A stretch of 64,000 nt of DNA from Flavobacterium sp. SUN052 (GTDB lineage: Bacteria; Bacteroidota; Bacteroidia; Flavobacteriales; Flavobacteriaceae): NCBI RefSeq assembly GCF_028867935.1, contig NZ_JAPQNS010000011.1, positions 62,001 through 126,000 of the forward strand, given 5' to 3'. Positions 31,286-55,132 of this stretch are shown here, piece after piece. The translations under genes and the position numbers were made by a program. Numbering within the stretch: the stretch's first letter is position 1; the number at the start of each line of letters is the position of its first letter. Under the pieces are notes generated by a model. That model had not been told where the DNA came from. It saw nothing but the letters and a program-made list of their open reading frames with translations, and did not search any database.

Positions 31286-31315
31286 ACTCCTTACTGCTTC
31301 ACTCCTTACTGCTTC
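31286..31315. repeat. 15-bp exact tandem duplication over a stop codon
   Basis: ACTCCTTACTGCTTC occurs twice back to back (31286-31300, 31301-31315). The second copy holds the stop codon of the T9SS protein gene, so the first copy repeats its last codons and stop outside the gene. A simple slippage event. Confidence 0.8.
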
Positions 31316-32226
31316 ACAATCTTTTTGGCAACCTGCTTGCCCTGCACCAATCCGCGAACAAAATAAACGCCAGCCGGTAGGCTCGAAACCACAAATCGGG
31401 TGGAATTGAACCCCGCCTTCGCATTCAGCGCACTGCTTTGTTTTGTCGTTCCCTGCATGTCGAGCAGGTCAAACTTTACGTCCGACTGATCGGCAGAACT
31501 GAAATATTTGACCTCGATTACGTCGGTTGCCGGATTAGGGTAAGCCTGTAGCGATAGCGTGGCAATATCTTCTTTGGGGTCAGCTAAAACCACACCCAGT
31601 TGCGCCTGTTTCTGTTTCAGCACCTCATCCAGCGAGATTACCCCATTCATTTGCTCCAGCGGCCGGGCCGACGTGGATGCCCGTTGACCAGAACGAGTGT
31701 AAAAGCTACCCCGAATATTGAGGGCCATCTTCGTTTCGGCAAACTGCACAAATTTGTCGTCGGTGGTTAATACCTTCACCTTCTCCGGCTCTCCACCCTG
31801 CCCTTTAAACGTAAACATGGCAATGGGCTCTCCACTGGCAAACTGCCCGTAATTAGTTTCCTGTGGGTTTTTACCAATCACATAGTAGGCCCAGTCGGCT
31901 CCGCTCTCCGATGCCGTGAATCCTTCGGGAGCCACCAGCTTATACGGTGCTTTGTCCCAGTTCCCTCTGATATCGCGTATGGTTGTCACCACAAAATCTT
32001 TGGGGACTTTCAGCGAAAACTGCGCCGTTGCCCCCCGGTCTTCGGTCTCCGGGTTGTTGGCGTTGGGTGTGTTGTAGTTGGGAACGATCCAGGCCGTGTA
32101 CAGCGCAGTGGTTGGTTCGTAGGTAACCATGTACCGCACTTCACTCGACGACACCATGACATTACTTTGCGCCCGAACAAAGGGGCTACAAAGCCAGACA
32201 AATATTATAAAACCAATGTTTTTCAT
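31306..32226 (-). CDS. Secreted protein with shared N-module and T9SS type A C-terminal domain
   Basis: 306 aa. Signal peptide MKNIGFIIFVWLCSPFVRAQ. Residues ~27-205 are the operon's shared N-terminal module (VTYEPTTALYTAWIVPNYN, then QFSLKVPKDF, IRGNWDKAPYKL, YYVIGKNPQETNYGQF and SFYTRSGQ). Residues ~225-306 form a classic T9SS type A sorting domain: LQAYPNPATDVIEVKYF, FDLLDMQG and LPAGVYFVRGLVQGKQVAKKIVKQ. It is therefore predicted to cross the outer membrane by the gliding/secretion machinery and be attached to the surface. Last gene of the four-gene unit, 9 bp after the 418-aa gene. It may be the core surface partner for the larger proteins, which lack this signal. Confidence 0.88.
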   Translation of the reverse strand: MKNIGFIIFVWLCSPFVRAQSNVMVSSSEVRYMVTYEPTTALYTAWIVPNYNTPNANNPETEDRGATAQFSLKVPKDFVVTTIRDIRGNWDKAPYKLVAPEGFTASESGADWAYYVIGKNPQETNYGQFASGEPIAMFTFKGQGGEPEKVKVLTTDDKFVQFAETKMALNIRGSFYTRSGQRASTSARPLEQMNGVISLDEVLKQKQAQLGVVLADPKEDIATLSLQAYPNPATDVIEVKYFSSADQSDVKFDLLDMQGTTKQSSALNAKAGFNSTRFVVSSLPAGVYFVRGLVQGKQVAKKIVKQ

Positions 32227-32235
32227 GGCTTTGAT

Positions 32236-33492
32236 TTAAATACGTGATTTAGTTTTTCGAATAACAACAGGGACACATAATGCAGGTGGACAGCAGTTTC
32301 CATCTTCAACAACAATGGGGCAGCAGCCACTTAAAGGGCAACTTCCACTGGCCGACGTAACTGTGTATATGCCTGATTGGGTAATTGAAATAGAATTACC
32401 CGTTGCAAACAAGGTTCCGTTTCTGAACCAGCGGACATCCTGATAACTGCTGAGAATACTGACCAGAAATTCATCGCCCGTACAAAGCCGTACCGGCACA
32501 CTGGCACAAACCGACGCTTCGTTATTGGCGAGGTTGGTATCCTGACTGCCCGTTGCCGTCACACTAGCGGTATTCACAAGCACCCCCTCGGTTTGAACAC
32601 CCACTGTCAACACAAGCGTTGCCACTTCGCCAGCAGTCAGGTCGCCCACGGTCCAGACGCCGGTTGTAGCGTTGAAACTACCGCGAGAGGGCGTTGGTAT
32701 TCCCTGTAACAGCATCGAACCGTTAAGCATGAGCGTGTCTACCACGCTGACACCTACGGCATTGCCCGGACCCAAATTTTGAACCGTTATGGTAAAACTT
32801 AGCGATGAGCCGATAGCCGCTACCGACTGACTTACCAGTTTTGTAATGAGCAGATCGGCGTTGGCCGGAGGCACAGCGCTACACTGAGCGGGTGGTCCCG
32901 CTACTGTTCGAAACTGCTCCAGCGGATTCTGATTACCACCCGAGGGTTGCCCCGAAACAGAATAGAAACTGTTGGCTACGTTAAGAGAAAATTTCAGGTT
33001 GGCCTGCGAAATAAACGAGTTTCCCGGCTCCAGCGGACTCACAGCCCCAAAGCAGCCGCTACCCCGGAAGGTAAACAGAGCCACCGGAGTGCCACTCACA
33101 AACGGACCATAGTTCGTTTCCGACGGCGATTTACCAATTACATAATAGTTCACGGCAGGGTCCAGTCCCGAACCTGCCCAGTCCTGGTTGGGGTTGCCTG
33201 GCCCCAGGCGCAGGGGTTCTTTATCCCACGTTCCCCGGACATCCGTAATGTCTACGATTGAGAATGAAGCCGGTACTTTGAGGGTGAACTGAGCTGTTCC
33301 CCCTCGTTCGGTGGCTCCTGCGTTGTTCGCGTTGGGAAGGCTATATCGGGGAACTACCCAGGCAGTGTAGCGGTCTGTAGTCTGGTCATACGTCACCTGA
33401 TAATCTACCACATTGGCAGACTGTTGAGCGTGGCTCGTCCAGGCCGTAAGACTTAAGTAGCTCCAAATCAGTACGCTTACAAATCGTTTCAT
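32236..33492 (-). CDS. Secreted protein: shared N-module, DUF11 domain, Cys-rich C-terminus
   Basis: 418 aa from ATG 33492 (MKRFVSVLIWSYLSLTAWTSHAQ, a signal peptide); the frame extends upstream only through a TTG codon. Residues ~27-215 are the shared N-module, ending SFYSVSGQPSGGNQNPLEQF. A DUF11/CARDB-type beta-sandwich follows at ~222-335 (ITVQNLGPGNAVGVSVVD). Then an Ig-like segment (VRWFRNGTLFATGNSISI) and a Cys-rich tail SGCCPIVVEDGNCCPPALC ending in VPVVIRKTKSRI. No T9SS type A motif is visible. The Cys-rich tail with basic end is a form I recall from other Cytophagales surface proteins, role unknown. Gaps to neighbours are 9 and 71 bp. Confidence 0.8.
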   Translation of the reverse strand: MKRFVSVLIWSYLSLTAWTSHAQQSANVVDYQVTYDQTTDRYTAWVVPRYSLPNANNAGATERGGTAQFTLKVPASFSIVDITDVRGTWDKEPLRLGPGNPNQDWAGSGLDPAVNYYVIGKSPSETNYGPFVSGTPVALFTFRGSGCFGAVSPLEPGNSFISQANLKFSLNVANSFYSVSGQPSGGNQNPLEQFRTVAGPPAQCSAVPPANADLLITKLVSQSVAAIGSSLSFTITVQNLGPGNAVGVSVVDTLMLNGSMLLQGIPTPSRGSFNATTGVWTVGDLTAGEVATLVLTVGVQTEGVLVNTASVTATGSQDTNLANNEASVCASVPVRLCTGDEFLVSILSSYQDVRWFRNGTLFATGNSISITQSGIYTVTSASGSCPLSGCCPIVVEDGNCCPPALCVPVVIRKTKSRI

Positions 33493-33563
33493 AATATAGC
33501 TGAGTTTCAACGTTCAACAAGTTTGGAGGTAGCCTGGCCGTATGCCAGACTACCCCGAAACAC

Positions 33564-34390
33564 TTAAGGCAACTGCTCCCGAATGGTGAAGAAGGGTAAC
33601 CGGAAGCTGTTGCCCGGATGATTTCTAACCACATTCAGATAAATGAACTCTACATCATTGTTTGTACCCTGGAAAATTACCTGACCGTCCAGGTTCACGT
33701 CGCCCACCTGATAACCCCGCATCTTAAAGGAAGGTGATTTCAGGCCATTGGCCACTGCATTGATCACCAGTTGGTAAGGCTGGTTCACGTCGTTGTTCGA
33801 GCCCTGGTAAATGACCAGGTTACGAGGTGTACTGGCACCGTTATCGTTCAATACGTTACCAGCCCACATGGCTACACCCTGTTGCACGACCACCTGCGCC
33901 TGATCTACGGCTACCTGCGAATAGCTGGTAGTGCCTGTATACGTGAATGTTGGCGTGTTAGGCGTCCGGAAATCAACAATTGATGTTGTAGCCGACAAGG
34001 GCAGCGCCGTCTGGCTCATAACACCCAGGTGATTGCGGTGACGAATAGCCACAAAGTAGTTACCCGACAAAGCCTGTAGGAACGTCAGTGAAGACACCCC
34101 GTCGACCTCAACAATATCCCCATCGCGCTGCAACAGAGCCGCCCGGCTGTCGATAATGGTCGAAGAACTAGTGGCTGAGCGCAGTTCAACGAACACCCAA
34201 TCAACAATGGCGTCGGCTCCGGTAACGGCCGTCACGCTGGCAGCCATAGTACCAACCGGTGTGATTGGGTTAAGCGTTGCGTAAGGGTGAGTAGCTGGCA
34301 GGTAACCCGCAGCCCGTAGATCATCGCGCATCAGCGCACCTGACGTAACACCAAACAGGGCACCTTGTAAGTACACCTGTGGCAACAGTC
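33564..34390 (-). repeat. C-terminal module, copy 1 (in the 1196-aa gene)
   Basis: Encodes ~275 aa starting VRLLPQVYLQGALFGV. It is about 85% identical in protein to 37229-38065 by eye, with long DNA identities such as the stretch around 33973-34005. The module resembles a C-terminal region I recall from many Bacteroidota surface proteins (MxDxLRAxGxLP, IVDWVxVELR, LLQRDGDxVxVDGVSS, VAxRHRNHLGVMS, GDVNxDGxVxxxGxxND, EQLP). Confidence 0.85.
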
Positions 34391-37154
34391 TGACGATCGG
34401 AGCGCCAACAACTGGTGCAGTTGTTACCGTCGCCTGGTTATTGGCTGGCGTGTTATCGCCAACCGGTATGGTCGTGTTCACCGTGAACGTTTGTGGCAAA
34501 CCTACCGTCGGCAACGCAGCGATAACCGGAATCGTGAGGGTTTCACTGGTCAATGTTGCCAGCGATACCGATTTAACGCAGGTAACCAGCTGACCATTTA
34601 CTGTACAGGCAAAGCCGTTAGACGTTAAAAAGCCAGGGGCAACGGTCACGTTAGCAGGCATAGTGAGGGTTACCGAAACAGGCCCCACGTAGTTACCCGT
34701 TCCGATGTTACTCACCGAAATAGGCAGGCTGCTGGTCAAGGTAGCCGTTAGGCTAGGCACGGGTTGTCCGATGCTGACAGAAAGGTCAACAGCGCCATTG
34801 TTCGGGAACACCGTAATGAAAGCGGTTGCCGTGGCGCAGGCTGCGCTGGTTCCGTTGTCGCAAACCTGATACACAAACGAGTCGGTGCCCACAAAGTCAG
34901 CCACCGGCGTGTAGGTGAAGCTACCGGTAGGCGTCAGCGTCAGCGTACCAAACGCTGGACCACTAACGGGGGTTATCGTAGCCGTCTGGGTGTTGCCTTC
35001 CAGGTCCTGATCGTTGGCAAGCACATTGCCAGCCGCAAACGTGCCTGTAAACGTGCTGAACGCATCGTCGTATGCCAGCGTCTGGTTCACCGCTGGATTC
35101 GGACGAACGAATACCGATACTGTTGCCTGATCACACAGAACGGGGTTTCCGTTGTCACACACCTGATACACAAATGTGTCGACTCCGGTAAAGCTGTTCA
35201 CCGGCGTATAGGTGATGGTACCGTTTGCATTCACCACCAGATTACCGTTGATGGGCTGCGTTACAATAATTGGCTGGCCCAGCGGCTGACCATCAGGATC
35301 GCTGTCATTCGCTTTTACCGCAATAGTTACCGGGCTATTGGGCGTTGTGGCAGCCCGATCGTCCTGTGCAATTGGGTTGTCGTTGTTGTTTGGCGCATTG
35401 TCCCGAACTCTGATCGTCACTACTGCTGTAGCGCATTGTGCACCTGGGTTACAGACCTGATACACGAAGCTGTCAATTCCGGTGAAGCTCGTAGCAGGCG
35501 TATAGGTGTAGCTACCTGTTGGCGATAATGTCAGCGTACCGCTGGTTACGCTCACTACAGGTGTTGTTGTTACAGTAAGCGACAACCCTGCCGACTCCTG
35601 GTCGTTAGTAAGCACATTACCCACAACAGACGCGTTTTTAAACGTTTGGTTGAAGTCGTTTTGTGGTAGCGGAATGCTTGGAGCCACCGTAACCGTCACC
35701 GAATTAGTTGAGCACTGGCCGGGCTGAGCAATGTCGCAAACAGTATAGCTGAATGAATTGACACCGAAGAAAGCGGGTGCTGGTGTGTACGTAATCGTAC
35801 CATTAGCATTCACCACGGCCGTTCCGTTGGCAGGCTGACTGGCTAACGTAACCGTCACATTCGTGCTGCTGGCGGGCAGGCCGTTGCGGGTATCATTGGC
35901 CAGCACCGATACACTAACCGGCGTGCCTGAGCCCGTTGTTACCTGATCGGGGTTGGTAATAATTACGGTATTGACCGTTAAGTTAACCGGCGCAGTTGAA
36001 CACCGGCCGGGCTGGGCAATATCGCAGATGGTGTAACTAAACGAAACTGGCCCCGAGAAGCCTGCCGCTGGCGTGTACGTGATTGATCCGTCGGCATTCA
36101 CCGTGGCCGTACCCGTGGCTGGCGGGGTGCTTACACTCACGGTCACGTTGGTAGTGCTGGCCGGTAAGCCGTTGCGGGTATCGTTAGCCAACACCGATAC
36201 GCTGACAGGCGAACCAGCATTGACTGTTGACTGATCGGGGTTGGCCACAATAACGGCATTCACCGTCAGGCTAACAGCCGCCGACGAGCAGATAGTGGTT
36301 TGACCGGGTGCGCAAATGGTATACGTAAACGAAACAGGTCCTGAATAGCCAGCCTGGGGGGCATAATTGATAGTCCCATCGGCATTGACAGTTGCCGTAC
36401 CAATAGTTGGTGGTGTACTTACACTAACGACCACATCGGTATTACTTACCGGTTGCCCGTTACGGGTGTCGTTGGCCAGCACCGATACACTAAAGGGAAT
36501 TCCCGCCGTTACGGTCTGACTGTCGGGGTTGGCCAGCAGAACCGAACATTGTGCAGCGGGACCGGTAATGTTGCGAAACTGTTCGAGTGGCGTCTGGTTA
36601 CCACCAGCGGGCTGACCCGAGCGCGAATAAAAGCTGTTGGCTACGTTGAGCGATAGATTGTTGTCGGCTTCGGCAATGAACGGATCGCCTGCTGGCAACG
36701 GGGTAATTTCTCCGAAACAGCCATTACCCGTGAACGAGAACAGGGGAATTGGTGTGCCGGGCGTAAACTTACCGTAGTTTACTTCGTTCGGCGCTTTACC
36801 GATAACAAAGTAGTTATAAGCCGCATTAAGCGATGCACTGTACGTTTGGCTGGGGTTACCCGGCCCCAGTCGAATTGGCGCTTTATCCCAGCTACCCGTC
36901 AGATCCTGAATATTGGTAATCGAAAATGAACTGGGTACTTTAATCGTAAACTGTGCCGTACCACCTAATTCGTCATTGCCTGTATTGTTGGCATTGGGCG
37001 TAGCGTAGTTTGGTACAACCCAGGCGATATACCGCCCGGTAGCCACGTTATACGTGACCTGGTAGTCAACAGTGTTCGGCGACTGCTGAGCCGAAGCGAG
37101 ATACCCCCCGAGCAGAAAGCAACCCCAGAGGAAACAGGTAAATAACTTTTTCAT
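33564..37154 (-). CDS. Large multidomain surface protein with cadherin-like VxxND repeats
   Basis: 1196 aa. Signal peptide MKKLFTCFLWGCFLLGGYLASAQ. Residues ~26-215: shared N-module (YIAWVVPNYATPNANN to SFYSRSGQPAGGNQTPLEQF). About 215-790: roughly six Ig/cadherin-like units of the Big_9 type, each with VLANDTRNG or VKANDSDPDG and ending TYTPxxxFTGxDSFVYQVCD. About 790-920: a CARDB/DUF11-like domain shared with the 3602-aa protein. About 922-1196: a C-terminal module also shared with that protein, including GDVNLDGQVIFQGTNNDVEF, a calcium-loop-like motif, and ending REQLP. Repeats and Ca-loops point to an extracellular adhesin or matrix protein. Third-position differences keep the repeats apart at DNA level. 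Confidence 0.85.
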   Translation of the reverse strand: MKKLFTCFLWGCFLLGGYLASAQQSPNTVDYQVTYNVATGRYIAWVVPNYATPNANNTGNDELGGTAQFTIKVPSSFSITNIQDLTGSWDKAPIRLGPGNPSQTYSASLNAAYNYFVIGKAPNEVNYGKFTPGTPIPLFSFTGNGCFGEITPLPAGDPFIAEADNNLSLNVANSFYSRSGQPAGGNQTPLEQFRNITGPAAQCSVLLANPDSQTVTAGIPFSVSVLANDTRNGQPVSNTDVVVSVSTPPTIGTATVNADGTINYAPQAGYSGPVSFTYTICAPGQTTICSSAAVSLTVNAVIVANPDQSTVNAGSPVSVSVLANDTRNGLPASTTNVTVSVSTPPATGTATVNADGSITYTPAAGFSGPVSFSYTICDIAQPGRCSTAPVNLTVNTVIITNPDQVTTGSGTPVSVSVLANDTRNGLPASSTNVTVTLASQPANGTAVVNANGTITYTPAPAFFGVNSFSYTVCDIAQPGQCSTNSVTVTVAPSIPLPQNDFNQTFKNASVVGNVLTNDQESAGLSLTVTTTPVVSVTSGTLTLSPTGSYTYTPATSFTGIDSFVYQVCNPGAQCATAVVTIRVRDNAPNNNDNPIAQDDRAATTPNSPVTIAVKANDSDPDGQPLGQPIIVTQPINGNLVVNANGTITYTPVNSFTGVDTFVYQVCDNGNPVLCDQATVSVFVRPNPAVNQTLAYDDAFSTFTGTFAAGNVLANDQDLEGNTQTATITPVSGPAFGTLTLTPTGSFTYTPVADFVGTDSFVYQVCDNGTSAACATATAFITVFPNNGAVDLSVSIGQPVPSLTATLTSSLPISVSNIGTGNYVGPVSVTLTMPANVTVAPGFLTSNGFACTVNGQLVTCVKSVSLATLTSETLTIPVIAALPTVGLPQTFTVNTTIPVGDNTPANNQATVTTAPVVGAPIVRLLPQVYLQGALFGVTSGALMRDDLRAAGYLPATHPYATLNPITPVGTMAASVTAVTGADAIVDWVFVELRSATSSSTIIDSRAALLQRDGDIVEVDGVSSLTFLQALSGNYFVAIRHRNHLGVMSQTALPLSATTSIVDFRTPNTPTFTYTGTTSYSQVAVDQAQVVVQQGVAMWAGNVLNDNGASTPRNLVIYQGSNNDVNQPYQLVINAVANGLKSPSFKMRGYQVGDVNLDGQVIFQGTNNDVEFIYLNVVRNHPGNSFRLPFFTIREQLP

Positions 37155-37228
37155 TGATGGATTACGTTAATTATGGATACTGTTTTGATTGTGATGGAAA
37201 GCTGTGTAATTCTATTTATTGTCTGATT

Positions 37229-38065
37229 TTAAGGCACTTGCTCTCTGATAATGAAGAATGGCACCTTCAGACTGTTGCCCGGATGATTCTTCACAACATT
37301 CTGATAGATGAATTCAACGTCATTACTTGTTCCCTGATAAATCACCTGACCGTCCAGGTTTACGTCGCCTAGCTGATAGCCTCGCAGTTTATAGGAAGGG
37401 GATTTCAGCACGTTGGCCGTCGCATTGATTATCTGCTGGTAATTCTGGTTCACATCGTTGTTCGTTCCCTGGTAGATCACCAGGTTTCGGGGCGCCCGGG
37501 CAGCATTATCATTCAGGACATTTCCAGCCCACATGGCTACGCCCTGCTGCACTATTACCTGCGCCTGATCGGCGGCAATCTGGGTATAGCTCAGTGTACC
37601 CGAACTGGTGTAAGTCGGGGTGTTGATGTTTCGGAAATCGACAATTGATGTTGTAGCCGACAAGGGCAGCGACGTCCGACTCATGACGCCCAGGTGGTTC
37701 CGATGCCGAATGGCCACATAGTAGTTACCCAGTATCGACTGGGCAAAGCTCAGCGAAGAGACTCCATCAACCTCCACAATATCACCATCACGCTGGAGCA
37801 GGGCTGCCCGACTGTCTACGATGACGGCAGGGCTGGTAGCCGAGTGCAGCTCCACAAATACCCAGTCAACAATGGCGTCGGCTCCCGTAACGGCCGTCAC
37901 GCTGGCGTCCATGGTACCAACCGGCGTGATGGGGTTCAGGGCGGCATAAGGATGGCTAGCAGGCAGGTAACCGGCAGCCCGAAGGTCGTCGCGCATGAGC
38001 GAGCCCGTTGTGACACCGAACAAAGCACCTTGTAAATACACCTGCGGTAACAGCCTAACGGTAGG
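37229..38065 (-). repeat. C-terminal module, copy 2 (in the giant gene)
   Basis: Encodes ~278 aa paralogous to 33564-34390, with conserved blocks GALFGVTTGSLMRDDLRAAG, ALLQRDGDIVEVDGVSSL, AIRHRNHLGVMSRTSLPLSA and two YQGTNNDV-type units, the second within GDVNLDGQVIYQGTSNDVEF. Confidence 0.85.
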
Positions 38066-41000
38066 CGGTAACGGCTGTACGAGTACCGAAACCGTCGCGA
38101 CATCACACTGCCCGCCCGTGTTACATACCTGATACGTAAAGCTGGCAGGACCGGTAAATCCTACCGCAGGTGTGTAGGTATAGCTGCCCGTGGGACTCAT
38201 TACCACGGTTCCACTAGTCGGCTGACCAGCTGCATAGCTTAATGGCAGACCCTGCGGATCGTAGTCATTCCCCGCTACTGAGCCCGTTTGAGGAGCATTG
38301 AGTTGAGTTAGCAACAAATCATCCACACCAACTGGAGTCAGCGTTGCACCAACCGGGGGCGAAGGTTGCACGTTGATAGTTACCGTTGCCGTGGCGCACA
38401 AGGCCGGTATTGCCCGATCACAAATCTGATAATCGAAGCTGGCAACACCAGTGAAATCTGCTGGGGGCGTGTAGGTTATAGAACCGTCTCCGTTTACTGT
38501 CGCTATTCCCTGGTTGGGTTGTGCTACCAGCGTGGGAGTGGCCAACTGCCCGCTTGCCGCTGTCGCGCTGTTGGGATCGGTATCGTTGGCCAGCACAACC
38601 ACCCGCACCGATGAGTTCCGGAATGCCCGTAGATTATCGTTCGTAGCAACCGGACGGGCATTTCCGCCTTCAGGGTCAACTTCTATATTGATACTCACAC
38701 AGGCGCTACTGCTCAACCCCGCCGAATTACTCGCACTGTAGCAGAAGGTGGCTACACCCGTGAAGCCAGCCGCTGGCGAGAAGCTAAAACTACCATCTGG
38801 ATTGAGCGTGACGGTGCCGCTGGAAGGCGGTGTCAGAAGCGTGGCTACGAGAGGCAGTCCCTGCGGATCGCGATCATTCGTCAGCACATTACCAGAGACG
38901 GGTACATTGGGCCTTGTTGCCGTTACATCGCCTGTTAGCAGAGGGGCTACTGCCGTAACGGTTATAGTCACCGTTGTGGTAGCGCAGGTAGCGGGCGTTA
39001 GCTGGTCGCAGAGCTGATAAGCAATGGTGTATGATCCTGCAGTAGTACCCACGGCTACACTGACGGAACCGGTGTTGGTATTGAGCGAAATACCCGCTGG
39101 GTATATACCGACCTGGGTTAACAGAGCATTGCCCCCCGCTCCTACCGTCGCCGGTTGGCCGTTGACAACATCGTTCGCAGCCACGTTAACCACGGCAAGA
39201 CCACCACTTCCGCTACCGATAATGCCCAAATCTGGGTTAGCGGTCACGCTAGGCGTCACGGTGATAATCGCCGTTGCAGTCGCGCAGGTAGCAGGGGTTA
39301 GTCGATCACAAATCTGATAAACAACCGTGTACGAACCGGGTGCGGTACCAACGGCTACGCTTACACTACCCGTTTCGGTATTCAAACTAATACCTGCTGG
39401 ATACGTACCAACCGCAGTTAATGTCGCATTACCACCCGGACCTAGTGTTGCGGCTACCCCATTGACCACATCATTTGCCGCAACATTCGCCACGGCGGTT
39501 CCGCCCGTACCAGCCGAAACAGTACCGGTATCGGGATTAGCCGTGAGGCTGGGGGTAACGATGATGGTAACCGTGGTGGTAGCACAAGTAGTAGGCGTGA
39601 GTCGGTCACAGAGCTGGTAAGTGATTGGGTACGTACCCGGTGTGGTACCTATAGCTACACTGACTGAGCCAGTGGTAGTATTAAGGCTGATACCGTTGGG
39701 ATAGGTACCCACTGGGCTAATGGTTGCATTGCCCCCCGTTCCGAGTGTAGCTGGGTTAAGATTTACCTGATCGTTGGTCACCACACTCACGACGGCCAGC
39801 CCACCCGTACTAGCTGATACAGTACCGCTGTCCGGCACCGGGCTGATGCAGGACGAAACGGTTATAGTCACGGTTGTTGGCAGCGATATACAGCCCTGAG
39901 CAGATGTGGCGGTGACCGAATAGAGTGCTGTTCCCAGACCGGCTGTGAAGCTGGCTACGTTGCCCGTTACACCACCCACATTGGGCGAAAACGCATAGCT
40001 GGTACCGCCACCTGCTGTTAGGCTAATGGGCTGGCCATAACAGGTGGACAGTGAGTTGACAGCCAACGTGGCTATTGGCAGGGGATACACCGTTACGGTA
40101 GTGTCGGCTACGGCGGTACAGCCATTGACATCGGTCACCAGCACTCGGTAGGTTCCCGATTGGGCCGGTGTTGGGTTTAGCACCACTACCGGATTTGCCG
40201 TGCCCAGGTTGCCATCTGGTCCGCTCCAGACGTAGCTAACATTACTAATTGGACTAGCAGTCAGGCTGATTGGCTGTCCAGCGCAGTAGGTAGCACTACC
40301 CGTGATCGAAACAATCGGCGGGGACGGTACCGGGTTTACGGTGACACTCGTAGCCAGCGATTCACAACCGGTGGCTATGTCCTTCACTTTCAATTGATAT
40401 ACGTCCGGTTGCAGACCCGCCAGCGTAGCTGAAGACTGGTACGAAATGCCATTGTTGAAGCTATACTGCACCCCCGAAGCCGGAGTCAACACCTGAATGG
40501 TGCCCGTCAGGGTGATACAGGTAGGTTGAGTAACACTGACCGTTGGCGCACTCGGCAGGGGATTTGTAGGCAGGGTTATGCTGCTTGTTGCCGTGCAGCC
40601 ATTGGCATCCGTTACCACAACCGAATAACTGCCGCCACTCAGGCCCGTCAGCGTAGGAGTTGTCTGGGCCAGAGGACCAGTCGTGGTACTCCACGTATAA
40701 ACGTAAGAAGGTGTTCCGCCCGTTGCCGAGCTGGTTATAGTGCCGGTGGCCTGACCCGCGCAAACCGGACCTCCCCCCGTCAGCGAAACAGCCAGTAACG
40801 GCGGTTGTGTGATGGTGGCAGTCTGCGTTAGCGAACAACCATTGGCATCGGTTACCACAATTGAATAATTACCGGCTACCGTAGTAAGCGTGCTGACACC
40901 AGCTGTTTGCGTTGAGGAGATGAGGCCGCTGCTGTTGTAATAACTGATGGTATAGGGTGTTGTGCCACCATTCGTCGTAACCGTGATGGTACCCTGTCCG

Positions 41001-44000
41001 CCAAAGCAGCGGGCATTGGTTGTCTGCGTATTGACAGCTAACGGATTTGGTGTCGATACAACTACCGTAGCGGTGTTGCTCAGACAGCCGCTGGCATCCG
41101 TCACAACCAGGCTGTAGGTGTCGGCTTCACTAAAAACTGGGTTGGGCGCTGTTGAAATGACGCCAACGGCACCCGACCGATACCAGGCGTAACCAACCGG
41201 TGGCGACCCGCCCGTCACCTGCGTAGCAATCGCCACAGCGGGCATATTGTCGGCACAAACGATGCTGGTGTTAAGAATTTGCGCCAGCGGAGTTGGTTTC
41301 ACTGTAACGTTCTGGCTGGCCAGGGCGGTGCAGCCATTCACATCGGTCACCCGAACCTGATAGGTGCCGGAGTTGGCTGTGGTGCTGTTCGGAATCACCA
41401 GCGGGTTGCTGCTGCCCAGGTTTCCCCCCGGTCCGCTCCAAGCATATGTCAGACCTGTAGTAGGATTGGCTGTCAGCAAAATGGATTGCCCAGCGCACAG
41501 AGAAGCACTGCCCGAAATGGTAGGTTGAGGGAGTGCATTGACGGTAACGGTACCCGTGGCTACGGCCGAACAGCCCTGCCCGGAGGTAACTGTCACCGAA
41601 TATGGAGTGACGCCGATAACTGTTGGCGCGACGATGAGCAGGCCGCTCGTGTTTGTATTACCAGGCCCAAACCGATAGCTGTTCCCTCCGGTAGCGGTAA
41701 GGGTCGCACTGGTGCCGTTACAAATTGATGCCGATGATAGAGTGGCTGTCACGGCTGTATTCACCGTAACGGTTGCGGTACTGGTGGCGCAGGCCGGGGT
41801 GCCAATCGTCGAACAAAGCCGATAAACCAGGGCGTAAGAGCCAGCAACTGTACCGGTTGCCACATTGATTGCTCCTGTTGTTGTATTCAGGGTGATGCCG
41901 GTTGGATAGGTACCCAAACTGGTTACAGTCGCGTTAGTGCCCAATACAACTGGTTGACCGTTGACCACATCGTTGGAGGACACATCATTGATAGCAATAC
42001 CTATGCAGACCGTTCCGCTATCAGGCGCGGGATTGCTGCTCGGGACAACCGTTATGCTTACTGTTGTGGTGGAGCAGGTCGATGTCAACTTATCACAAAG
42101 CTGGTAGGCCACGGTATAGGTACCTGGGGTAGTACTTAGGGCCACGTTAATGGCACCGGTTGTGGTGTTTAGGGTAATGCCAGCCGCGTAGGTACCTGAC
42201 GTCGATAGCGTTGCATTTCCGTTAGCGCCCAACGTAGCTGGTAGCCCGTTGATAAAATCATTGGCAGCTACGTTGGCCACCGCCGTGCCGCCTGTCCCGG
42301 AGCTCACCGACCCCGCATCCGGCACGGCGATCACGCTGGGGGTAACGGTAATGGTGACGGTGGCCGTGCTACAGGTGGTAGGTGTTAATCGGTCGCAGAG
42401 CTGATAGGCGACCGTATACGTACCCGGCGTAGTTCCTTGAGCGACACTGATGCTACCAGTGCCAGTGATCAAACTAATGCCGGTTGGGTATGTGCCTACT
42501 GTGGTCAACGTAGCGTTGCCCGCCCCTCCGAGTGTGGCGGGTAGGCCATTGACCACGTCATTGGCTGCTACATTGGCAACCGCCGTTCCTCCTGATCCAG
42601 CTGAAACGGTACCCGAATCGGCATTGGCCGTCACACTCGGCGCGATAACTACCGTCACGGTCGTGGTGGCGCAGGTAGTCGGCGTGAGTTTATCACAAAG
42701 CTGATAAGCAACCGTATACGAACCGGGTGTGGTACCCTGGGCTACACTCACTGAACCCGTGGTTGCATTGAGCGTGATACCCACTGGATAATTACCCACT
42801 GTTGCCAGTGTGGCATTCCCCGTACCCCCTAATGTGGCGGGCACCCCATTGACCACATCATTTGCCGCTACGTTAGCAACCGTGGTTCCACCTATACCAG
42901 CCGAAACCGTACCGGCATCAGGACTGGCTATCACGCTTGGAGTGACGGTGACTGTTACGATTCCAGTGGTGCAGGTAGTCGTACCCAGCGTGCTACAAAG
43001 GGAGTAGACCAGGGTATACGTGCCGGGTGTAGTGGCTTGCACCACACTCACCGAACCGGTACCGGTGTTGAGGCTAAGATTTGGTGAACTGGTGCTAACC
43101 AGACTCAGGCTGGAGTTAGCGGAAGTAGCCGACAGGCCATTGACTACATCATTAGCTCGTACGTTGGCCACGGCAGTCCCTCCGGTTCCGGCGCTCACTG
43201 TACCGCTATCTGGATTGGCGGTTAGGCTCGGAGTAACTGTAACGGTGGCCGTCCCGGTGGTGCAGGTTGTTGTTCCTAAGGTGCTGCACAGTGAGTAGAC
43301 CAAGGAGTAGGTGCCGGGTGTGGTGGCCTGTAACACACTTACGGAGCCCGTGCTGGTGTTCAGACTGATATTTGGCGAGCTGGTGCTGACCAGACTCAGA
43401 CTGGAATTGGCAGCCGTAGCGGGTAAGCCGTTCACTATATCATTGGCTCGCACATCCGCAATTGCTGTTCCACCCGTTCCGGCGCTGACTGTGCCAGCGT
43501 CCGATGAAGCGGTAATGCTGGGCGTAACTGTAATAGTGACGGTAGCAGTCGCGCAGGTTGTAGGCGTAAGCTTGTCACAAATCTGGTACGCAACGGTATA
43601 TGAGCCCGGTGTAGTACCCTGTGCCACACTGACTGAGCCAGTTGTTGGGTTCAACGTAATGCCCGTAGGATAGGTACCTACAGAAGTCAAGGTGGCGTTC
43701 CCGGAACCACCTAACGTGGCAGGCAATCCATTGACTACGTCATTGGCGGCTACGTTTGCAACCGCTGTGCCGCCTGTTCCCGCACTCACTGTACCCGAAT
43801 CGGCATTAGCCGTTAGGCTCGGCGTGATGGTGATGGTTACGGTAGCAGTCGCACAGGTAGTGGGCGTGAGCTTATCGCAAATCTGATACCCAATCGTGTA
43901 CGAGCCGGGTGCGGTCCCCTGCGCTACACTCACTGAACCAGTAGCTGTGTTCAACGTAATGCCTGCTGGGTATGTACCCACTGTTGCCAGTGTGGCATTT

Positions 44001-47000
44001 CCCACTCCACCTAATGTTGCAGGCAGTCCATTAACCAGATCGTTGGCCGCTACATTCGCCACCGCAGTACCACCGGCACCCGCTGAAACCGTACCGGCAT
44101 CGGGAGAAGCTGTAACACTGGGGGTAAAGGTTATTCTTACGGTGGTGGTCGCGCAAGTGGCCGGGGTTAAGCGGTCGCAAAGCTGGTAAGTAACCGTATA
44201 CGAACCGGGCGCTGTCCCCTGAGCCACGCTGATGCTACCGGTAGTTGGGTTCAGGCTGATCCCAGTGGGGTAAGTGCCCACCGCTGAGACGGTGGCATTA
44301 CCACCTGCTCCTAACGTAGCAGGCAACCCGTTTACGACATCATTGGTAGCCACATTTGCAACGGCCGTTCCTCCCGTACCGGCTGAAACGGTTCCCGCAT
44401 CAGGGCTGGCTGTTACACTAGGAGTAATAGTAATGGCAACAGTCGAGGTGGCGCAGGTGGTTGGGGTGAGCTTATCACAGAGTTGGTAAGCTATTGTATA
44501 CGAGCCGGGGGCAGTGCCCTGAGCCACGCTCACCGAGCCACTAGTTGTAATCAGCGTGATACCTGGTGGATACGTGCCCACTGGGGCTAAGGTGGCGTTT
44601 CCTACCCCGCCTAGTGTAGCGGGGAGGCCGTTAACCAAATCATTGGTGGCTACGTTTGCAACCGCTGTGCCACCTGATCCGGCTGAAACGGTACCGGCAT
44701 CGGGGCTAGCAGTAACGCTAGGCGTGATGGTTACCGTCACGGTGGTGGTGGCACAAGTAGAAGGCGTGAGCTTATCGCAAATCTGGTACGCAACCGTATA
44801 AGTACCCGGCGCGGTGCCTTGAACCACACTGACGGAACCCGTCGCAAGATTCAGACTAATCCCGGCAGGGTAAGCTCCCACTGTTGTCAGAGTAGCGTTG
44901 CCTGTCCCGCCCGGCGTGCCTGGCAACCCATTGACTAAATCATTGGCCGCTACGTTTGCTACGGCTGTGCCGCCTGACCCAGCACTCACTGTTCCTGCAT
45001 CAGGGTTGGCAGTCACACTGGGAGTTACCGTAATGGCTATTGTAGAGGTCGCGCAAGTCGTTGGAGTCAGCACATCACAAAGCTGATACACAAGCGTATA
45101 CGAACCAGGAACTGTACCCTGAGCCACGCTGATACTACCCGTGGTAGCGTTGAGAGAGATGCCCGCCGGATAGGTACCCACGGTTGAGACCGTAGCATTG
45201 CCCCCTGCTCCCAGCGTGGCAGCCTGAGTATTAACAATATCGTTGGCGGCTATATTGGCAACCGCTACCCCACCCGTTCCCGCTGAAGCCGTTCCCGCAT
45301 CTGGTCGGGCTGTAACACTGGAACTAACGGTTATCGATAGTATAGCGACGTCGTTGTTTACGGTGATCTCCGGTGTTGTGGTTCCTACAATACCCGTGAA
45401 ACTTAGTGTTGTTGCAGCGGTAGCAACGGCTGGTGTTATGGGAACTGTGATTGTTGAACTACCACCCACAGCGATGACTGCGGAACTAGAACACGTAACA
45501 TTCGAACCCGTTGTAACGCAGGCAAAGCCACCGCTGGTGAACGATGCGGGCGTAGCCACATTCGCCGGTACAATTAAGGTTGTTGTAATAGGGCCAGAGG
45601 TGGCACCCGAACCGAGGTTGCTAATGGTAATGGGTAAACTACTGGTTTGCCCGACAAGTAGTGAAGGTGTTGGCTGAGCAATTGAAATCGCCGGATCGGC
45701 CAAGCCAATTACAGCAACCGTTGAGGAACACGTACCGGTTGCCTGTGTAGAGCTTACCGTCAGTGTGCGGGTTCCAACGGAGCCTGAGCCATCATAAGCA
45801 ATAGGAATAGCCAGCGATGTCTGGCCCGTAACCAGCGTTGATGTGACTGATGTGGGCGACGCTGTAAAGCCGGAACCGGTTACCGTAATTATTACCTGGC
45901 CATCGCGGGTGGTCGTGATTGGAATAGTGAGCACCCCCGTGGAGGCAGAACCAATAATGAATGTCCCCCCTACTGTGCCATTGGCGCAGTTTCCGTAGGT
46001 GAACGCCCCTTCTTTAATTCGCCAAAGAACCTGCGTGCCATTAGATGGGTAGGCGGTGAGCGGGTTTGTTATGCCCGCGTTGACCGGCCCAAATCCCGCA
46101 TCGTTCGTATCGATGTTATTATCCAGGCCGTCCTCATCCGAATCGACACCAGCCAGCGTCAGACCGGCTTCATTGGTATCAGTTTTTGTATCATTGTCGC
46201 TATCCGTATCAAGGTAATCAGGCGTATCAGTTCCGTCGGTATTGACAGGCATCAGTCCACCCGTGGAGGAATAAGAAGTGGGCAAACCCAACGGGGTAAC
46301 GGTAGTAGTGGGAACAATATATCCGCTTGTTGACTGGGCTTCAATATTGTCGGGAATGCCGTCGCCATCCGAATCCAGATCCAGGGCGTTAGAAATCCCA
46401 TCCCCGTCGGCATCAGCCAGTAAGCCCTCTGTATCGTCAACTATGCCGTCATTATCGTCATCAATATCGTTGGCATCGGCAATACCGTCACCGTCTGTGT
46501 CAAGTACGGGAACACAGGTCGAGTTTGCAGTAAATACGGCAGAGCCATTACCATCGAACGTGAAATAAGAAGCTGTTTCACTCCCGATGTTGTTGTACGT
46601 GATATCGAAGTAGGGTAATCCAACAAAGTTTAACGATACAGCGTAAAAGGCGTCGTTATTGTTTGCTGAGTTGTTGGCCGTTCCCTGAAAGCGAAAAGTA
46701 GCTCCTTCATTGATTACGGATACTGAGGTCGGCGTATTCGTTTTGTAGGAATACAGGGTTGACTTATCTAATTCGATACTCTCTGTTCGAGTAAACGTTG
46801 GTGCGGTGCCTACTCGATCAAGGTCAGCAACGGTGAATGACCCCTGAAAAGGTACGGGCGTGTTTGTACCACTTCGTACAACCGTCCATCGAACGCTTGC
46901 TCTGACATTAGCTGCTAAAATTCGAAATTCTGCCGTGACTCCATTTACAGCAAAATCAACGCTGGCGTTCGGAGTGCTTACGCCAGCAGTGCTTAGGCTC

Positions 47001-48037
47001 AACACATCACCGATAATGTCAACAGCCTGGCCATTTATCGTAGCCACATTACTGTAACGCGCCAGTTTATTGACGCCCGTTCCTGTATTAGATGAAGGGG
47101 CCGCGAATGTAAAGGACGTAAATCCGCTTTGCCCTGGGACTGGGCAGGCAGCTACCCTAATCGCTACGGTAGCCGAAGCTGAAGCCGTGCAGCTATTAGC
47201 ATCTGTTACCCGAACTGTATACGTACCCGGCACCACATTGGATATGTTCTGGGTTGTAGCTCCGTTACTCCAGAGATATGCGAACGGAGCGCGGCCACCC
47301 GAAACTGAAGCAAATGCAGCCCCATCGGCAGTTGTTGAACTGCTGGCGTTGGTCACCATAGTGCCTACCGTCAGCGCACTGTATTGTACAAAGGGGTAAA
47401 AAATAGCGGTACTGGTCGCCAGGCTAACCGTGTTGGCAATAACAATCTGTATTTCATCGAAACTGAGTGTTGTTGCAAAACCCAGTGCGCGTTGATTCGC
47501 GCCTGCTAACGACGTCAAATCCTGTAATGTAGATGCGGTGGATGATTCTCGAAGTGTCCCATCCAGATAGGTACGGATCGTTACCGAAGGCAGCAGGTTA
47601 TTGCCTAAGGCCGTGTTGTTCCCGATCAGGTAACCGGCAATAGCACCCGCGCCGAAAATGGTTGTCCCACCATTAGCATCGGCACTCACCGAAATTTGCC
47701 CACCACTACCGGTGAACTGAGACGACGTAATTGTTGCGGAGTTGGTTAAGCTAACATCAGCTGTATTGGCCGCATTGGAAACGCTACCCGTACCAAGGCC
47801 TAAAAAACCACCGACTCCACCCGTACGACCACTGATTACCCCAGCATTGGTATACGTGGTGGTGGTTAGGGGTTTAAAGTTACAGGGAATGGTTTGGGCC
47901 TCAACCTCAGCCACTGGGCTAACAAAAGCCGTTAGCAGACCGAGCAGAGATAATAACGAAGCTATTCGATGGCCATAGCTGTTGTATAGCTGTCGAAATA
48001 GTGCAGGAATGAAGGTAGAGTAAACAGTTAACTTCAT
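37229..48037 (-). CDS. Giant 3602-aa repetitive surface adhesin
   Basis: Long signal peptide with hydrophobic core SLLSLLGLLTAFVSPVAEVEAQ at ~28-49. Layout in residues: unique region 50-245; SprB-like repeat ~245-290 (GTYTVRVTDANSCTA); a unique beta domain ~290-505; thrombospondin-3-type calcium repeats ~510-640 (DTDGDGIADANDIDDDNDGI); CARDB-like domain ~780-900; twelve ~100-aa repeats ~904-2094; Ig and SprB-like repeats ~2094-2727 (GSYSVVVTDANGCTAT); three more 100-aa repeats ~2727-3029; three Big_9 VxxND domains ~3030-3325; the shared C-terminal module 3325-3602 ending REQVP. No type A T9SS motif. First gene of a four-gene unit; a 20-bp palindrome lies 37 bp upstream of ATG. Predicted extracellular adhesin, akin to SprB in composition but not recognised as an ortholog. 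Confidence 0.88.
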   Translation of the reverse strand: MKLTVYSTFIPALFRQLYNSYGHRIASLLSLLGLLTAFVSPVAEVEAQTIPCNFKPLTTTTYTNAGVISGRTGGVGGFLGLGTGSVSNAANTADVSLTNSATITSSQFTGSGGQISVSADANGGTTIFGAGAIAGYLIGNNTALGNNLLPSVTIRTYLDGTLRESSTASTLQDLTSLAGANQRALGFATTLSFDEIQIVIANTVSLATSTAIFYPFVQYSALTVGTMVTNASSSTTADGAAFASVSGGRAPFAYLWSNGATTQNISNVVPGTYTVRVTDANSCTASASATVAIRVAACPVPGQSGFTSFTFAAPSSNTGTGVNKLARYSNVATINGQAVDIIGDVLSLSTAGVSTPNASVDFAVNGVTAEFRILAANVRASVRWTVVRSGTNTPVPFQGSFTVADLDRVGTAPTFTRTESIELDKSTLYSYKTNTPTSVSVINEGATFRFQGTANNSANNNDAFYAVSLNFVGLPYFDITYNNIGSETASYFTFDGNGSAVFTANSTCVPVLDTDGDGIADANDIDDDNDGIVDDTEGLLADADGDGISNALDLDSDGDGIPDNIEAQSTSGYIVPTTTVTPLGLPTSYSSTGGLMPVNTDGTDTPDYLDTDSDNDTKTDTNEAGLTLAGVDSDEDGLDNNIDTNDAGFGPVNAGITNPLTAYPSNGTQVLWRIKEGAFTYGNCANGTVGGTFIIGSASTGVLTIPITTTRDGQVIITVTGSGFTASPTSVTSTLVTGQTSLAIPIAYDGSGSVGTRTLTVSSTQATGTCSSTVAVIGLADPAISIAQPTPSLLVGQTSSLPITISNLGSGATSGPITTTLIVPANVATPASFTSGGFACVTTGSNVTCSSSAVIAVGGSSTITVPITPAVATAATTLSFTGIVGTTTPEITVNNDVAILSITVSSSVTARPDAGTASAGTGGVAVANIAANDIVNTQAATLGAGGNATVSTVGTYPAGISLNATTGSISVAQGTVPGSYTLVYQLCDVLTPTTCATSTIAITVTPSVTANPDAGTVSAGSGGTAVANVAANDLVNGLPGTPGGTGNATLTTVGAYPAGISLNLATGSVSVVQGTAPGTYTVAYQICDKLTPSTCATTTVTVTITPSVTASPDAGTVSAGSGGTAVANVATNDLVNGLPATLGGVGNATLAPVGTYPPGITLITTSGSVSVAQGTAPGSYTIAYQLCDKLTPTTCATSTVAITITPSVTASPDAGTVSAGTGGTAVANVATNDVVNGLPATLGAGGNATVSAVGTYPTGISLNPTTGSISVAQGTAPGSYTVTYQLCDRLTPATCATTTVRITFTPSVTASPDAGTVSAGAGGTAVANVAANDLVNGLPATLGGVGNATLATVGTYPAGITLNTATGSVSVAQGTAPGSYTIGYQICDKLTPTTCATATVTITITPSLTANADSGTVSAGTGGTAVANVAANDVVNGLPATLGGSGNATLTSVGTYPTGITLNPTTGSVSVAQGTTPGSYTVAYQICDKLTPTTCATATVTITVTPSITASSDAGTVSAGTGGTAIADVRANDIVNGLPATAANSSLSLVSTSSPNISLNTSTGSVSVLQATTPGTYSLVYSLCSTLGTTTCTTGTATVTVTPSLTANPDSGTVSAGTGGTAVANVRANDVVNGLSATSANSSLSLVSTSSPNLSLNTGTGSVSVVQATTPGTYTLVYSLCSTLGTTTCTTGIVTVTVTPSVIASPDAGTVSAGIGGTTVANVAANDVVNGVPATLGGTGNATLATVGNYPVGITLNATTGSVSVAQGTTPGSYTVAYQLCDKLTPTTCATTTVTVVIAPSVTANADSGTVSAGSGGTAVANVAANDVVNGLPATLGGAGNATLTTVGTYPTGISLITGTGSISVAQGTTPGTYTVAYQLCDRLTPTTCSTATVTITVTPSVIAVPDAGSVSSGTGGTAVANVAANDFINGLPATLGANGNATLSTSGTYAAGITLNTTTGAINVALSTTPGTYTVAYQLCDKLTSTCSTTTVSITVVPSSNPAPDSGTVCIGIAINDVSSNDVVNGQPVVLGTNATVTSLGTYPTGITLNTTTGAINVATGTVAGSYALVYRLCSTIGTPACATSTATVTVNTAVTATLSSASICNGTSATLTATGGNSYRFGPGNTNTSGLLIVAPTVIGVTPYSVTVTSGQGCSAVATGTVTVNALPQPTISGSASLCAGQSILLTANPTTGLTYAWSGPGGNLGSSNPLVIPNSTTANSGTYQVRVTDVNGCTALASQNVTVKPTPLAQILNTSIVCADNMPAVAIATQVTGGSPPVGYAWYRSGAVGVISTAPNPVFSEADTYSLVVTDASGCLSNTATVVVSTPNPLAVNTQTTNARCFGGQGTITVTTNGGTTPYTISYYNSSGLISSTQTAGVSTLTTVAGNYSIVVTDANGCSLTQTATITQPPLLAVSLTGGGPVCAGQATGTITSSATGGTPSYVYTWSTTTGPLAQTTPTLTGLSGGSYSVVVTDANGCTATSSITLPTNPLPSAPTVSVTQPTCITLTGTIQVLTPASGVQYSFNNGISYQSSATLAGLQPDVYQLKVKDIATGCESLATSVTVNPVPSPPIVSITGSATYCAGQPISLTASPISNVSYVWSGPDGNLGTANPVVVLNPTPAQSGTYRVLVTDVNGCTAVADTTVTVYPLPIATLAVNSLSTCYGQPISLTAGGGTSYAFSPNVGGVTGNVASFTAGLGTALYSVTATSAQGCISLPTTVTITVSSCISPVPDSGTVSASTGGLAVVSVVTNDQVNLNPATLGTGGNATISPVGTYPNGISLNTTTGSVSVAIGTTPGTYPITYQLCDRLTPTTCATTTVTIIVTPSLTANPDTGTVSAGTGGTAVANVAANDVVNGVAATLGPGGNATLTAVGTYPAGISLNTETGSVSVAVGTAPGSYTVVYQICDRLTPATCATATAIITVTPSVTANPDLGIIGSGSGGLAVVNVAANDVVNGQPATVGAGGNALLTQVGIYPAGISLNTNTGSVSVAVGTTAGSYTIAYQLCDQLTPATCATTTVTITVTAVAPLLTGDVTATRPNVPVSGNVLTNDRDPQGLPLVATLLTPPSSGTVTLNPDGSFSFSPAAGFTGVATFCYSASNSAGLSSSACVSINIEVDPEGGNARPVATNDNLRAFRNSSVRVVVLANDTDPNSATAASGQLATPTLVAQPNQGIATVNGDGSITYTPPADFTGVASFDYQICDRAIPALCATATVTINVQPSPPVGATLTPVGVDDLLLTQLNAPQTGSVAGNDYDPQGLPLSYAAGQPTSGTVVMSPTGSYTYTPAVGFTGPASFTYQVCNTGGQCDVATVSVLVQPLPPTVRLLPQVYLQGALFGVTTGSLMRDDLRAAGYLPASHPYAALNPITPVGTMDASVTAVTGADAIVDWVFVELHSATSPAVIVDSRAALLQRDGDIVEVDGVSSLSFAQSILGNYYVAIRHRNHLGVMSRTSLPLSATTSIVDFRNINTPTYTSSGTLSYTQIAADQAQVIVQQGVAMWAGNVLNDNAARAPRNLVIYQGTNNDVNQNYQQIINATANVLKSPSYKLRGYQLGDVNLDGQVIYQGTSNDVEFIYQNVVKNHPGNSLKVPFFIIREQVP
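38950..39855 (-). repeat. Second tandem array: 3 copies of the ~300-bp adhesin repeat
   Basis: Three units in a row, each ~100 codons, with PDSGTVSA-type start, NDxVNxxPATLG, TYPxGISLNTxTGSVSVAxGT and YQLCDxLTPxTCATTTV. They are separated from the first array by ~1.9 kb of Ig/SprB-like coding sequence and lean to SVAVGT rather than SVAQGT. Confidence 0.9.
41755..45325 (-). repeat. First tandem array: 12 copies of the ~300-bp adhesin repeat
   Basis: About 3570 bp divide into twelve units of ~297 bp. Unit consensus: SVTANPDAGTVSAGTGG, TAVANVAANDVVNGLPATLG, GNATLTTVGTYPTGISLN, TTGSVSVAQGTTPGSYTVAY, QLCDKLTPTTCATTTVTITV. In transcription order units 7 and 8 are a variant pair (NSSLSLVSTSSPN, YSLCSTLGTTTCTTG) and unit 12 is a truncated hybrid (YRLCSTIGTPACATS). 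Protein identity is high while DNA differs at many third positions. Confidence 0.92.
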
Positions 48038-48765
48038 ATAAAGAACGTATGAGTACAGATGCGACTTTGATTCAGCTGGTTCATGAACCAGCTATTTGCC
48101 CATGGGGAGGGGCATTTCACTCAGCGCTACGCTGAAACACAGGCCAGCCGAACGCTGGGCTTTGCTTGCCTGGTTAGTGATACCTTTCCTAAGAGACCGG
48201 TATCTTCTGCACTCATTCTGGCAGGCTTCAGCTCTGCTGATCCCGCTGAAGTCTTTTGCTGTAAATAGTTTTTCATATGTGAGTATTTGTTAAAACATAC
48301 GCTTAAATAAGAAATATGGATTAACTAGATTTTGAGATGCGAAAGATACACGAAAGTTGCCTATCACATATGCTTATATACAACAAATTTAATGTGTTTT
48401 GTGACTAATTGGTTGACCAGTGTTCGAAAAAGGTGACGAAATGAACGGGGAGTTGTCTTCGAATTAATCCGTAAAAGGGGGCGGCAAGGCGTCAATATCT
48501 GTGCCAAAGAAGAATTGACTGGTGCAGCTACGTAAAGGAGATAGCGCACAGATAGAAAAAGTGGCCTACGACACTATAACGAGTAGTCTATTTGTTTTTT
48601 AGAGACCTTTTTTCATACCTTGTATATACGTTAAGTGCCTTCGTAAAACCTTCCGTTGCATAGATTTTGTTAGAGACAACAGAAGTGGCTCGGTTGAATG
48701 CTTCCAAACTGGTTCTGTTGACTATTTTAGTAGATGCGCTAACCCCAGCAATATTGTAAAACTAT
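48038..48765. other. 728-bp intergenic regulatory region of the adhesin unit
   Basis: Lies between divergent genes (adhesin on minus, LytTR regulator on plus). It holds a perfect 20-bp palindrome (48074-48093), a second dyad CTTCAGC/GCTGAAG (48227-48252 region), and a minus-strand TAAATTTG at 48384-48391 that matches TAnnTTTG but lacks a spaced TTG. The 48300-48765 part is AT-rich. Short open frames here have no homologous look and I do not call them. Confidence 0.5.
48074..48093. promoter_or_regulatory. Perfect 20-bp palindrome upstream of the giant adhesin gene
   Basis: AGCTGGTTCATGAACCAGCT equals its own reverse complement. It lies 37-56 bp upstream of the ATG of the 3602-aa gene, so in the leader or core promoter. 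A perfect palindrome with no loop suits a dimeric DNA-binding protein better than an RNA hairpin. Confidence 0.6.
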
Positions 48766-53058: not shown

Positions 53059-53109
53059 GAAAGGGGGAAATTTCCAAAACGCAGAACAGAACAATGCGCT
53101 AACGAAACG

Positions 53110-54135: not shown

Positions 54136-54145
54136 CAAACATTAT

Positions 54146-54159: not shown

Positions 54160-54240
54160 TAACATTTTATGCTTTTTCTTGAAAAGAATAGTATTGTTTT
54201 GCTCTATCAAATCATTTTCATCACTTAAAATTAGTGCACA

Positions 54241-55110: not shown

Positions 55111-55132
55111 TATTTTCCGCATAATTCACAAG

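Follow-up and report, generated by a model that had tools for sequence, protein, structure and literature searches.

A conserved four-gene locus of secreted modular proteins whose shared modules may form a cohesin-dockerin-like pair

We analysed a window of 64,000 nucleotides (the whole stretch of DNA under study) from a genome listed as Flavobacterium sp. SUN052. Four co-oriented genes run on the minus strand from position 48037 down to 31306 and encode, in that order, a giant protein of 3602 aa (37229..48037), an adaptor-type protein of 1196 aa (33564..37154) and two anchor-type proteins of 418 aa (32236..33492) and 306 aa (31306..32226). The ORF of the 418-aa protein opens with TTG at 33510, which gives 424 aa, and the Met at codon 7 gives 418 aa. 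The gaps between the genes are 74, 71 (counted from the codon-7 Met) and 9 bp. All four proteins begin with a Sec-type signal peptide, recognised by eye. Just behind it the 1196-, 418- and 306-aa proteins share a module of about 178 residues (N-module), and the giant and the adaptor end in another shared module (C-module). A preliminary description had reported the same four genes, gaps and signal peptides, and its list of parts holds in most respects: the N-module in three proteins (pairwise BLASTP E 3e-48 to 2e-83), the C-module in two (82% protein identity), Big_9, TSP3, a type A CTD, and a CARDB-like part in at least two, for which we find DUF11 in the ORF of the 418-aa protein (32236-33510, Pfam E 9.4e-27) and a DUF11/CARDB-like stretch of 113 residues common to the two large proteins (46% identity).

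Above the Pfam cut-off, the four proteins match only Big_9/Ig_7, cadherin-like, CshA-repeat, DUF11 and type A CTD families; neither shared module passes a family cut-off in Pfam or NCBIfam. Pfam gives six Big_9 stretches in the adaptor, and three plus an Ig_7 in the giant. By pattern, the giant also has 14 DxVNG-type repeats, spaced mostly 100 residues apart, and five TSP3-like calcium motifs (DxDxDG; 46127..46501, minus strand). SprB-like repeats had been claimed as well; one such stretch was found by pattern, but PF13573 did not match the giant at E 0.1. Upstream of the giant, the leader folds well (z -3.89), nothing similar was seen in the fetched loci of relatives (best E 0.078), and Rfam gave no match on 47900-48900. 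Promoter and terminator scans found fewer sites in the real sequence than in shuffles. The four genes may form one transcript.

The C-module is 276 aa long in the giant, where it forms the extreme C-terminus (37232..38059), and occupies 33567..34394 in the adaptor, both on the minus strand. The two copies share an 838-bp DNA block of 77.9% identity that starts at the module boundary, and a third, diverged copy lies on contig C13 of the same genome. In both the giant and the adaptor the module appears to consist of an X-module-like beta domain and a dockerin-like tail (37232..37549 in the giant, with two F-hand-like repeats; 33567..33884 in the adaptor). At least 1633 predicted proteins match the C-module at E 0.001, and it ends no more than two residues from the protein C-terminus in 77 of 78 cases (not deduplicated).

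Pfam Dockerin_1 does not match the C-module directly; at E 1e-5 it is present in 28 of 295 class-level genomes, with no match in the genome of the window. There are, however, two bridge proteins that match both models: L137 (539 aa; C-module E 1.4e-27, Dockerin_1 E 1.1e-7) and L144 (1.2e-26 and 6.2e-6). Protein L139 does so with a weaker C-module match (4.7e-5 and 6.4e-7), and the rest of the 30 Dockerin_1 loci returned had no C-module match below 0.03. When 28 Bacteroidia dockerin segments were aligned and compared with the C-module tail, hhalign gave 88% (E 2.9e-6) with both repeats in register, and 67% (E 5.1e-5) against the wider C set; the beta part of the C-module, the N family and the type A CTD gave 0.1-0.5%. 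At the level of sequence, then, the tail is kin of dockerins. The alignment puts four extra residues (such as IYQG/IFQG) into each repeat relative to the canonical dockerin loop, and the G of this insertion is kept in 33/33 in both repeats. Repeat 2 keeps D232 and G237 in 33/33 and N234 in 30, whereas repeat 1 is degenerate, keeping N180 (32) and D184 (30) and not the third ligand. The plug protein thus carries two F-hand calcium repeats, with a reserve for the loop insertions and the degenerate repeat 1. The predicted fold of the whole module resembles XDoc, and this supports the X-module part.

The N-module lies at 36549..37088 in the adaptor, 32893..33426 in the 418-aa protein and 31627..32166 in the 306-aa protein (all minus strand), and the copies are 40-59% identical by BLASTP. 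A strict N profile finds three copies in this genome, all at the four-gene locus, and is unrelated to the C profile. The copy modelled is that of the 418-aa protein, and the predicted fold of the N-module, the adaptor's included, is cohesin-like. In the fold comparison the first 26 rows are cohesins and CBMs come after; Foldseek on its own is weak. Sequence searches gave no such link. PF00963 (cohesin) matched none of 42 N-modules at E 10, and 24 Pfam Cohesin segments showed no match to the N family (hhalign 0.2-0.3%); Pfam Cohesin is present in 23 of 295 genomes, and the genome of the window has no match. Searching the PDB by sequence gave no match that we take as real; we put LpxD rows (E 0.008) and others for viral F proteins down to chance. 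The cohesin reading of the N-module is for this reason drawn from the predicted fold, which supports it, and from the partner module.

A jelly roll fold is common to CBM2/CBM3 and cohesins. The N-module might be a carbohydrate-binding adhesin domain with this fold, the dockerin-like tails binding some other cohesin. We think this quite improbable, as cohesins fill the top of the fold comparison ahead of CBMs and N and C genes are mostly neighbours (43 of 48 strong N-modules lie within 15 kb of a strong C-module).

Two of the four proteins carry recognisable sorting ends. The 306-aa protein has a type A CTD at 31309..31542 (minus strand; PF18962 E 9.8e-11, 42.2 bits, cut-off 27; TIGR04183 E 3.4e-10, 39.8 bits, cut-off 23), and no type A CTD was found above cut-off in the other three. 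The 418-aa protein qualifies as a CVP-CTERM protein, with a putative sorting signal at its extreme C-terminus (32248..32298, minus strand; NF058574 E 5.1e-7, 29.4 bits, cut-off 19). CVP-CTERM, overlooked in the preliminary description, has nine matches in this genome; we found no use of the name in the literature searched. For TIGR04131 (type B CTD), a search at E 1 gave no match in any of the four. It had been proposed that the smallest member brings the T9SS signal to the complex. It does have a genuine type A CTD. However, a putative sorting signal is also present on the 418-aa protein, and in 15 of the 23 loci found in relatives no N+type A gene is seen, some of these loci (L022, L027, L034) being cut by contig ends. 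That every locus would have the 306-aa member was an assumption we gave up, since it is there in 8/23 loci.

An iterated N profile, run on the loci fetched, returned 132 ORFs, of which 124 are distinct and 117 complete at the 3' end. The N-module starts at or before residue 70 in all 117, and five ORFs have two or three copies. By motif or our own models, 26 of the 117 end in a C-module, 33 in CVP (motif) and 38 in type A (own models), with 20 unlabelled; NCBIfam calls TIGR04183 on 37 ends, CVP-CTERM on 28 and TIGR04131 on seven. All seven type B ends fall among the 20 unlabelled ORFs, so 104/117 have one of four ends. Thirteen are without a nameable end, although in three of them we see remnants of a CVP-like end, below what NCBIfam calls.

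Such a set of ends could be read differently. The C-module and CVP-CTERM may be T9SS-type signals in their own right, for sorting or anchoring, alongside the type A and type B CTDs, with the N-module as a ligand-binding or display domain, and the locus would then encode four separately exported proteins with no docking between N and C. The terminal position of the C-module fits this, as does the fact that the window's two C-module proteins have no other CTD, and N-modules are fused to C-module, CVP, type A and type B ends as if these were equivalent. We nevertheless consider it somewhat unlikely, because the tail is dockerin-like by sequence and the whole module is like XDoc in its predicted fold, and because the cohesin-like fold of the partner and the clustering of N and C would be left unexplained.

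The genome holds a diverged second locus, L047 (C13:108000-122806), with four ORFs in order. The first, truncated at the end of the contig and at least 1147 aa long, closes with the diverged C-module. The other three start with a diverged N-module: 276 aa with a type A CTD (PF18962, 35.5 bits), 455 aa with DUF11 and a CVP end (C13:116881), and 531 aa with a type B CTD (TIGR04131, 62.9 bits, cut-off 35), one of the seven type B ends counted above.

Relatives chosen by the listed taxonomy were of no help: among 199 and 395 genomes only the window's own genome matched. GC is 31-35% in listed congeners (four sampled stretches) and 46-56% in the window (4-kb steps). As the listed group does not fit, we re-centred the sample of relatives on the Rudanella genome. 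In a scan of species genomes we found 23 loci, which belong to Rudanella, Spirosoma, Runella, Arundinibacter, Arcicella, Telluribacter, Persicitalea and Arsenicibacter. In 19 of these, the ORF immediately upstream of an N-module ORF has the same orientation and ends in a C-module. For three of the four exceptions (L018, L033, L036) the upstream sequence is shorter than 1 kb; for L030 it extends over 6.6 kb and holds no C-module ORF. The exact order (..C; N..C; N..CVP; N..type A) is kept in L015 and L016 of the 23, and also in genome G587 (L105); the remaining loci have fewer parts or are rearranged. The synteny check that had been suggested thus finds co-directional clustering conserved in other genomes.

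The modules also co-occur. Of 121 Rudanella-family genomes sampled, 38 have an N-module and 57 a C-module at E 1e-5: 29 have both, 9 have N alone, 28 have C alone and 55 have neither (Fisher p 1.4e-5, kinship ignored). Counting only strong C-modules (>150 bits), the figures are 28, 10, 14 and 69 (p 3e-9, kinship ignored). Weak N-modules lie within 15 kb of a strong C-module in 11 of 25 cases, and 51 of 89 strong C-modules have an N-module within 15 kb. Ten genomes have solo N+type A genes of 335-366 aa with no C-module in the stretch read, and in nine of these genomes nothing matches the C-module.

Alternatively, adhesin paralogues that stand side by side may simply have shuffled their domains, without forming any complex. 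Big_9, DUF11 and Ig_7 are freely mixed in C-module proteins, and locus duplication by itself would hold N and C together. We find this explanation very improbable, because N is only ever N-terminal and C nearly always sits at the C-terminus, and because the gene order is kept over several genera and in the diverged paralogous locus. The earlier claim of a single surface system is supported to this extent, by the conserved co-directional clustering and by the diverged second copy.

We built trees from ten loci having both giant and adaptor C-modules. The C-modules of giant and adaptor join within each genus (window pair 0.942, L112 0.919, two Rudanella 0.916, Runella 0.990, L037 0.995, Telluribacter 0.611) and then sort by gene inside Rudanella, Runella and Telluribacter. 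N-modules, in contrast, follow the gene and not the genus in the loci of the window, Rudanella and S. profusum (0.987, 0.990, 1.000). As Runella N-modules group by genus too, this contrast is confined to one clade. It is compatible with a common partner keeping the two plugs alike, but also with gene conversion without such a cause or with a shared export machine; recognition by one machine would also suit the view of the C-module as a sorting signal.

The closest likeness is to the way clostridial cellulosomes are attached by type II cohesins and X-module-dockerins (XDoc) (C. thermocellum ScaA/CipB with ScaB, ScaC and ScaF; Acetivibrio cellulolyticus ScaA-ScaB). Both halves resemble that system in predicted fold, and there too long proteins carry a C-terminal XDoc, anchoring proteins carry cohesins and adaptors stand between. 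CipB is described as a 2177-aa repeat protein with XDoc at its C-terminus, and the A. cellulolyticus ScaA type II dockerin as having an unusual four-residue insertion in the first calcium loop (PMC5141474); here, by alignment, both loops have one. Unlike in clostridial cellulosomes, the socket proteins here end in T9SS or CVP signals, the cargo is an adhesin-like giant and not a scaffold for cellulases, the modules have no Pfam cohesin or dockerin match, and there is one N-terminal socket per protein at this locus. Because it has no degradative enzymes or CBMs and no Pfam cohesin, we did not class the locus as a cellulosome.

Candidatus Stygibacter (Cloacimonadota) has a cellulosome-like scaffoldin for which attachment to its own cell by a conserved CTD has been proposed (PMC8542988), so that it likewise has a cohesin protein with a CTD proposed for cell attachment. 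It differs in its tandem recognisable cohesins, CBMs and dockerins on degradative enzymes, and a giant adhesin operon is not mentioned in the available part of that report. Giant T9SS-related surface adhesins are also known from the SprB/type B CTD proteins of Flavobacterium johnsoniae, and the shuttle is described as PorV for type A CTDs and as PorP/SprF-like for type B CTDs (PMC12618676). In contrast to SprB, our four proteins have no TIGR04131 match, and type B ends are limited to the few N-module ORFs counted above. The preliminary description knew of no named system with this layout, and neither does the literature we searched (titles and abstract openings), where the system is not described; an earlier mention in the survey of non-cellulosomal modules by Peer et al. 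2009 is possible. What had been overlooked is the likeness of the shared modules to the two partners in a cohesin-dockerin pair, which would give the layout a mechanism.

We lean cautiously toward the reading that the locus encodes a non-cellulosomal, cohesin-dockerin-like surface assembly in which the N-module is a socket and the C-module a plug. The locus is real and conserved; it would work in this way if the fold reading is right. The cohesin-like socket would bind the plug, made of the X-module-like beta domain and the calcium-type dockerin tail, and binding would probably need calcium. The 306-aa protein, a socket with a type A CTD, would be exported by the T9SS for display at the cell surface. 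The 418-aa protein, with its socket, DUF11 and CVP-CTERM, would be a second socket carrier with another sorting end that reaches the surface by the CVP route. Having both socket and plug, the 1196-aa protein may be an adaptor or chain extender whose own socket takes the next plug, and the adhesin-like giant, with a plug only, would be the terminal cargo that docks into a socket and is so held on the cell. To cross the outer membrane, the plug may double as a T9SS signal, or plug proteins may travel with a carrier.

Other genomes hint at a related pairing. In G694 (L154, L155) and G800 (L153), a small secreted protein of 264-378 aa adjoins one with a canonical dockerin at its end. The type A CTD of the small protein passes the cut-off in L153 (44 bits) and L155 (41.1) and falls below it in L154 (24.5 vs 27). 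L156 has a similar small protein before the dockerin protein (23.2 bits, below cut-off), and none was seen in L157. G694 is one of 13 genomes in a group that shares no member with the Rudanella family sample, and the C-module model matches nine of the 13, mostly over its first 180 positions. By eye the small G694 proteins look N-module-like, but hhalign of the outgroup small CTD proteins (21 homologues) against the N profiles gave 4.7% and 0.1%; we therefore did not accept them as kin of the N-module and keep them as no more than a lead.

More speculatively, and we think it unlikely to hold as a whole, this may be a widespread way of building surfaces in Bacteroidota. Plug giants without a T9SS signal of their own would either leave the cell together with small cohesin-like T9SS-CTD carriers or be captured by them once exported, N..C adaptors would polymerise head to tail into fibres, and the pairing of canonical dockerin and type A CTD (L153, L155 and the sub-cut-off L154) would be the older form.

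In the literature searched we found no account of how C-module surface proteins are held on the cell. If the socket-and-plug reading is true, a cohesin-dockerin-like pair would explain their attachment, and CVP-CTERM and T9SS ends would share a role as the ends of socket carriers. Cohesin-dockerin assembly would then extend from enzyme complexes to adhesive Gram-negative surfaces.

Upstream of the giant gene of the operon (3602 aa, 37229..48037), we found a 321-nt leader (48030-48350) with a predicted structured fold, for which the predicted folding energy was -95.8 kcal/mol (z -3.89). An Rfam search at the leader gave no match, and nothing similar to it was found in the loci that we fetched (best E 0.078). 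The divergent gene adjoining the operon encodes a LytTR response regulator (48766-49464, + strand), which is a possible regulator of the operon. Farther along on the + strand is a 132-aa protein (50585-50983), approximately half of which is a type A CTD, the T9SS C-terminal domain (PF18962, E 4.8e-8). Adjoining genes at 51955-56877 (+) encode a GH43-like hydrolase, a LacI regulator, a myo-inositol oxygenase and a Na:solute symporter; these are possibly a cluster for using sugar or inositol.

Beyond the two N-module loci of the genome (the operon and its diverged copy on contig C13), CVP-CTERM, a putative sorting signal, has seven more matches, at C38:32011, C1:80929, C1:88471, C12:221376, C12:513310, C12:517412 and C1:343082 (contig:position). 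Their frames range from 56 to 4792 aa and most are large. Neither the N-module nor the C-module matched within the stretches read.

In other genomes, ten loci (L086-L089 and L091-L096) have a solo protein of 335-366 aa that combines a diverged N-module with a type A CTD, and no C-module matched within the parts of these loci that were read. Of the ten genomes, nine lack any C-module match; the exception, G648 (L093), has one on a different contig. In four loci from other Bacteroidia, dockerin-ended proteins adjoin small proteins whose type A CTD scored above the cut-off in L153 and L155 and below it in L154 and L156.

The taxonomic grouping assigned to SUN052 looks wrong, because its genome size (8.1 Mb) and GC (46-56% in the window) are unlike those of the listed congeners (3.1-5.7 Mb; 31-35% in four stretches), and its nearest relatives by protein fall within Rudanella and Spirosoma.
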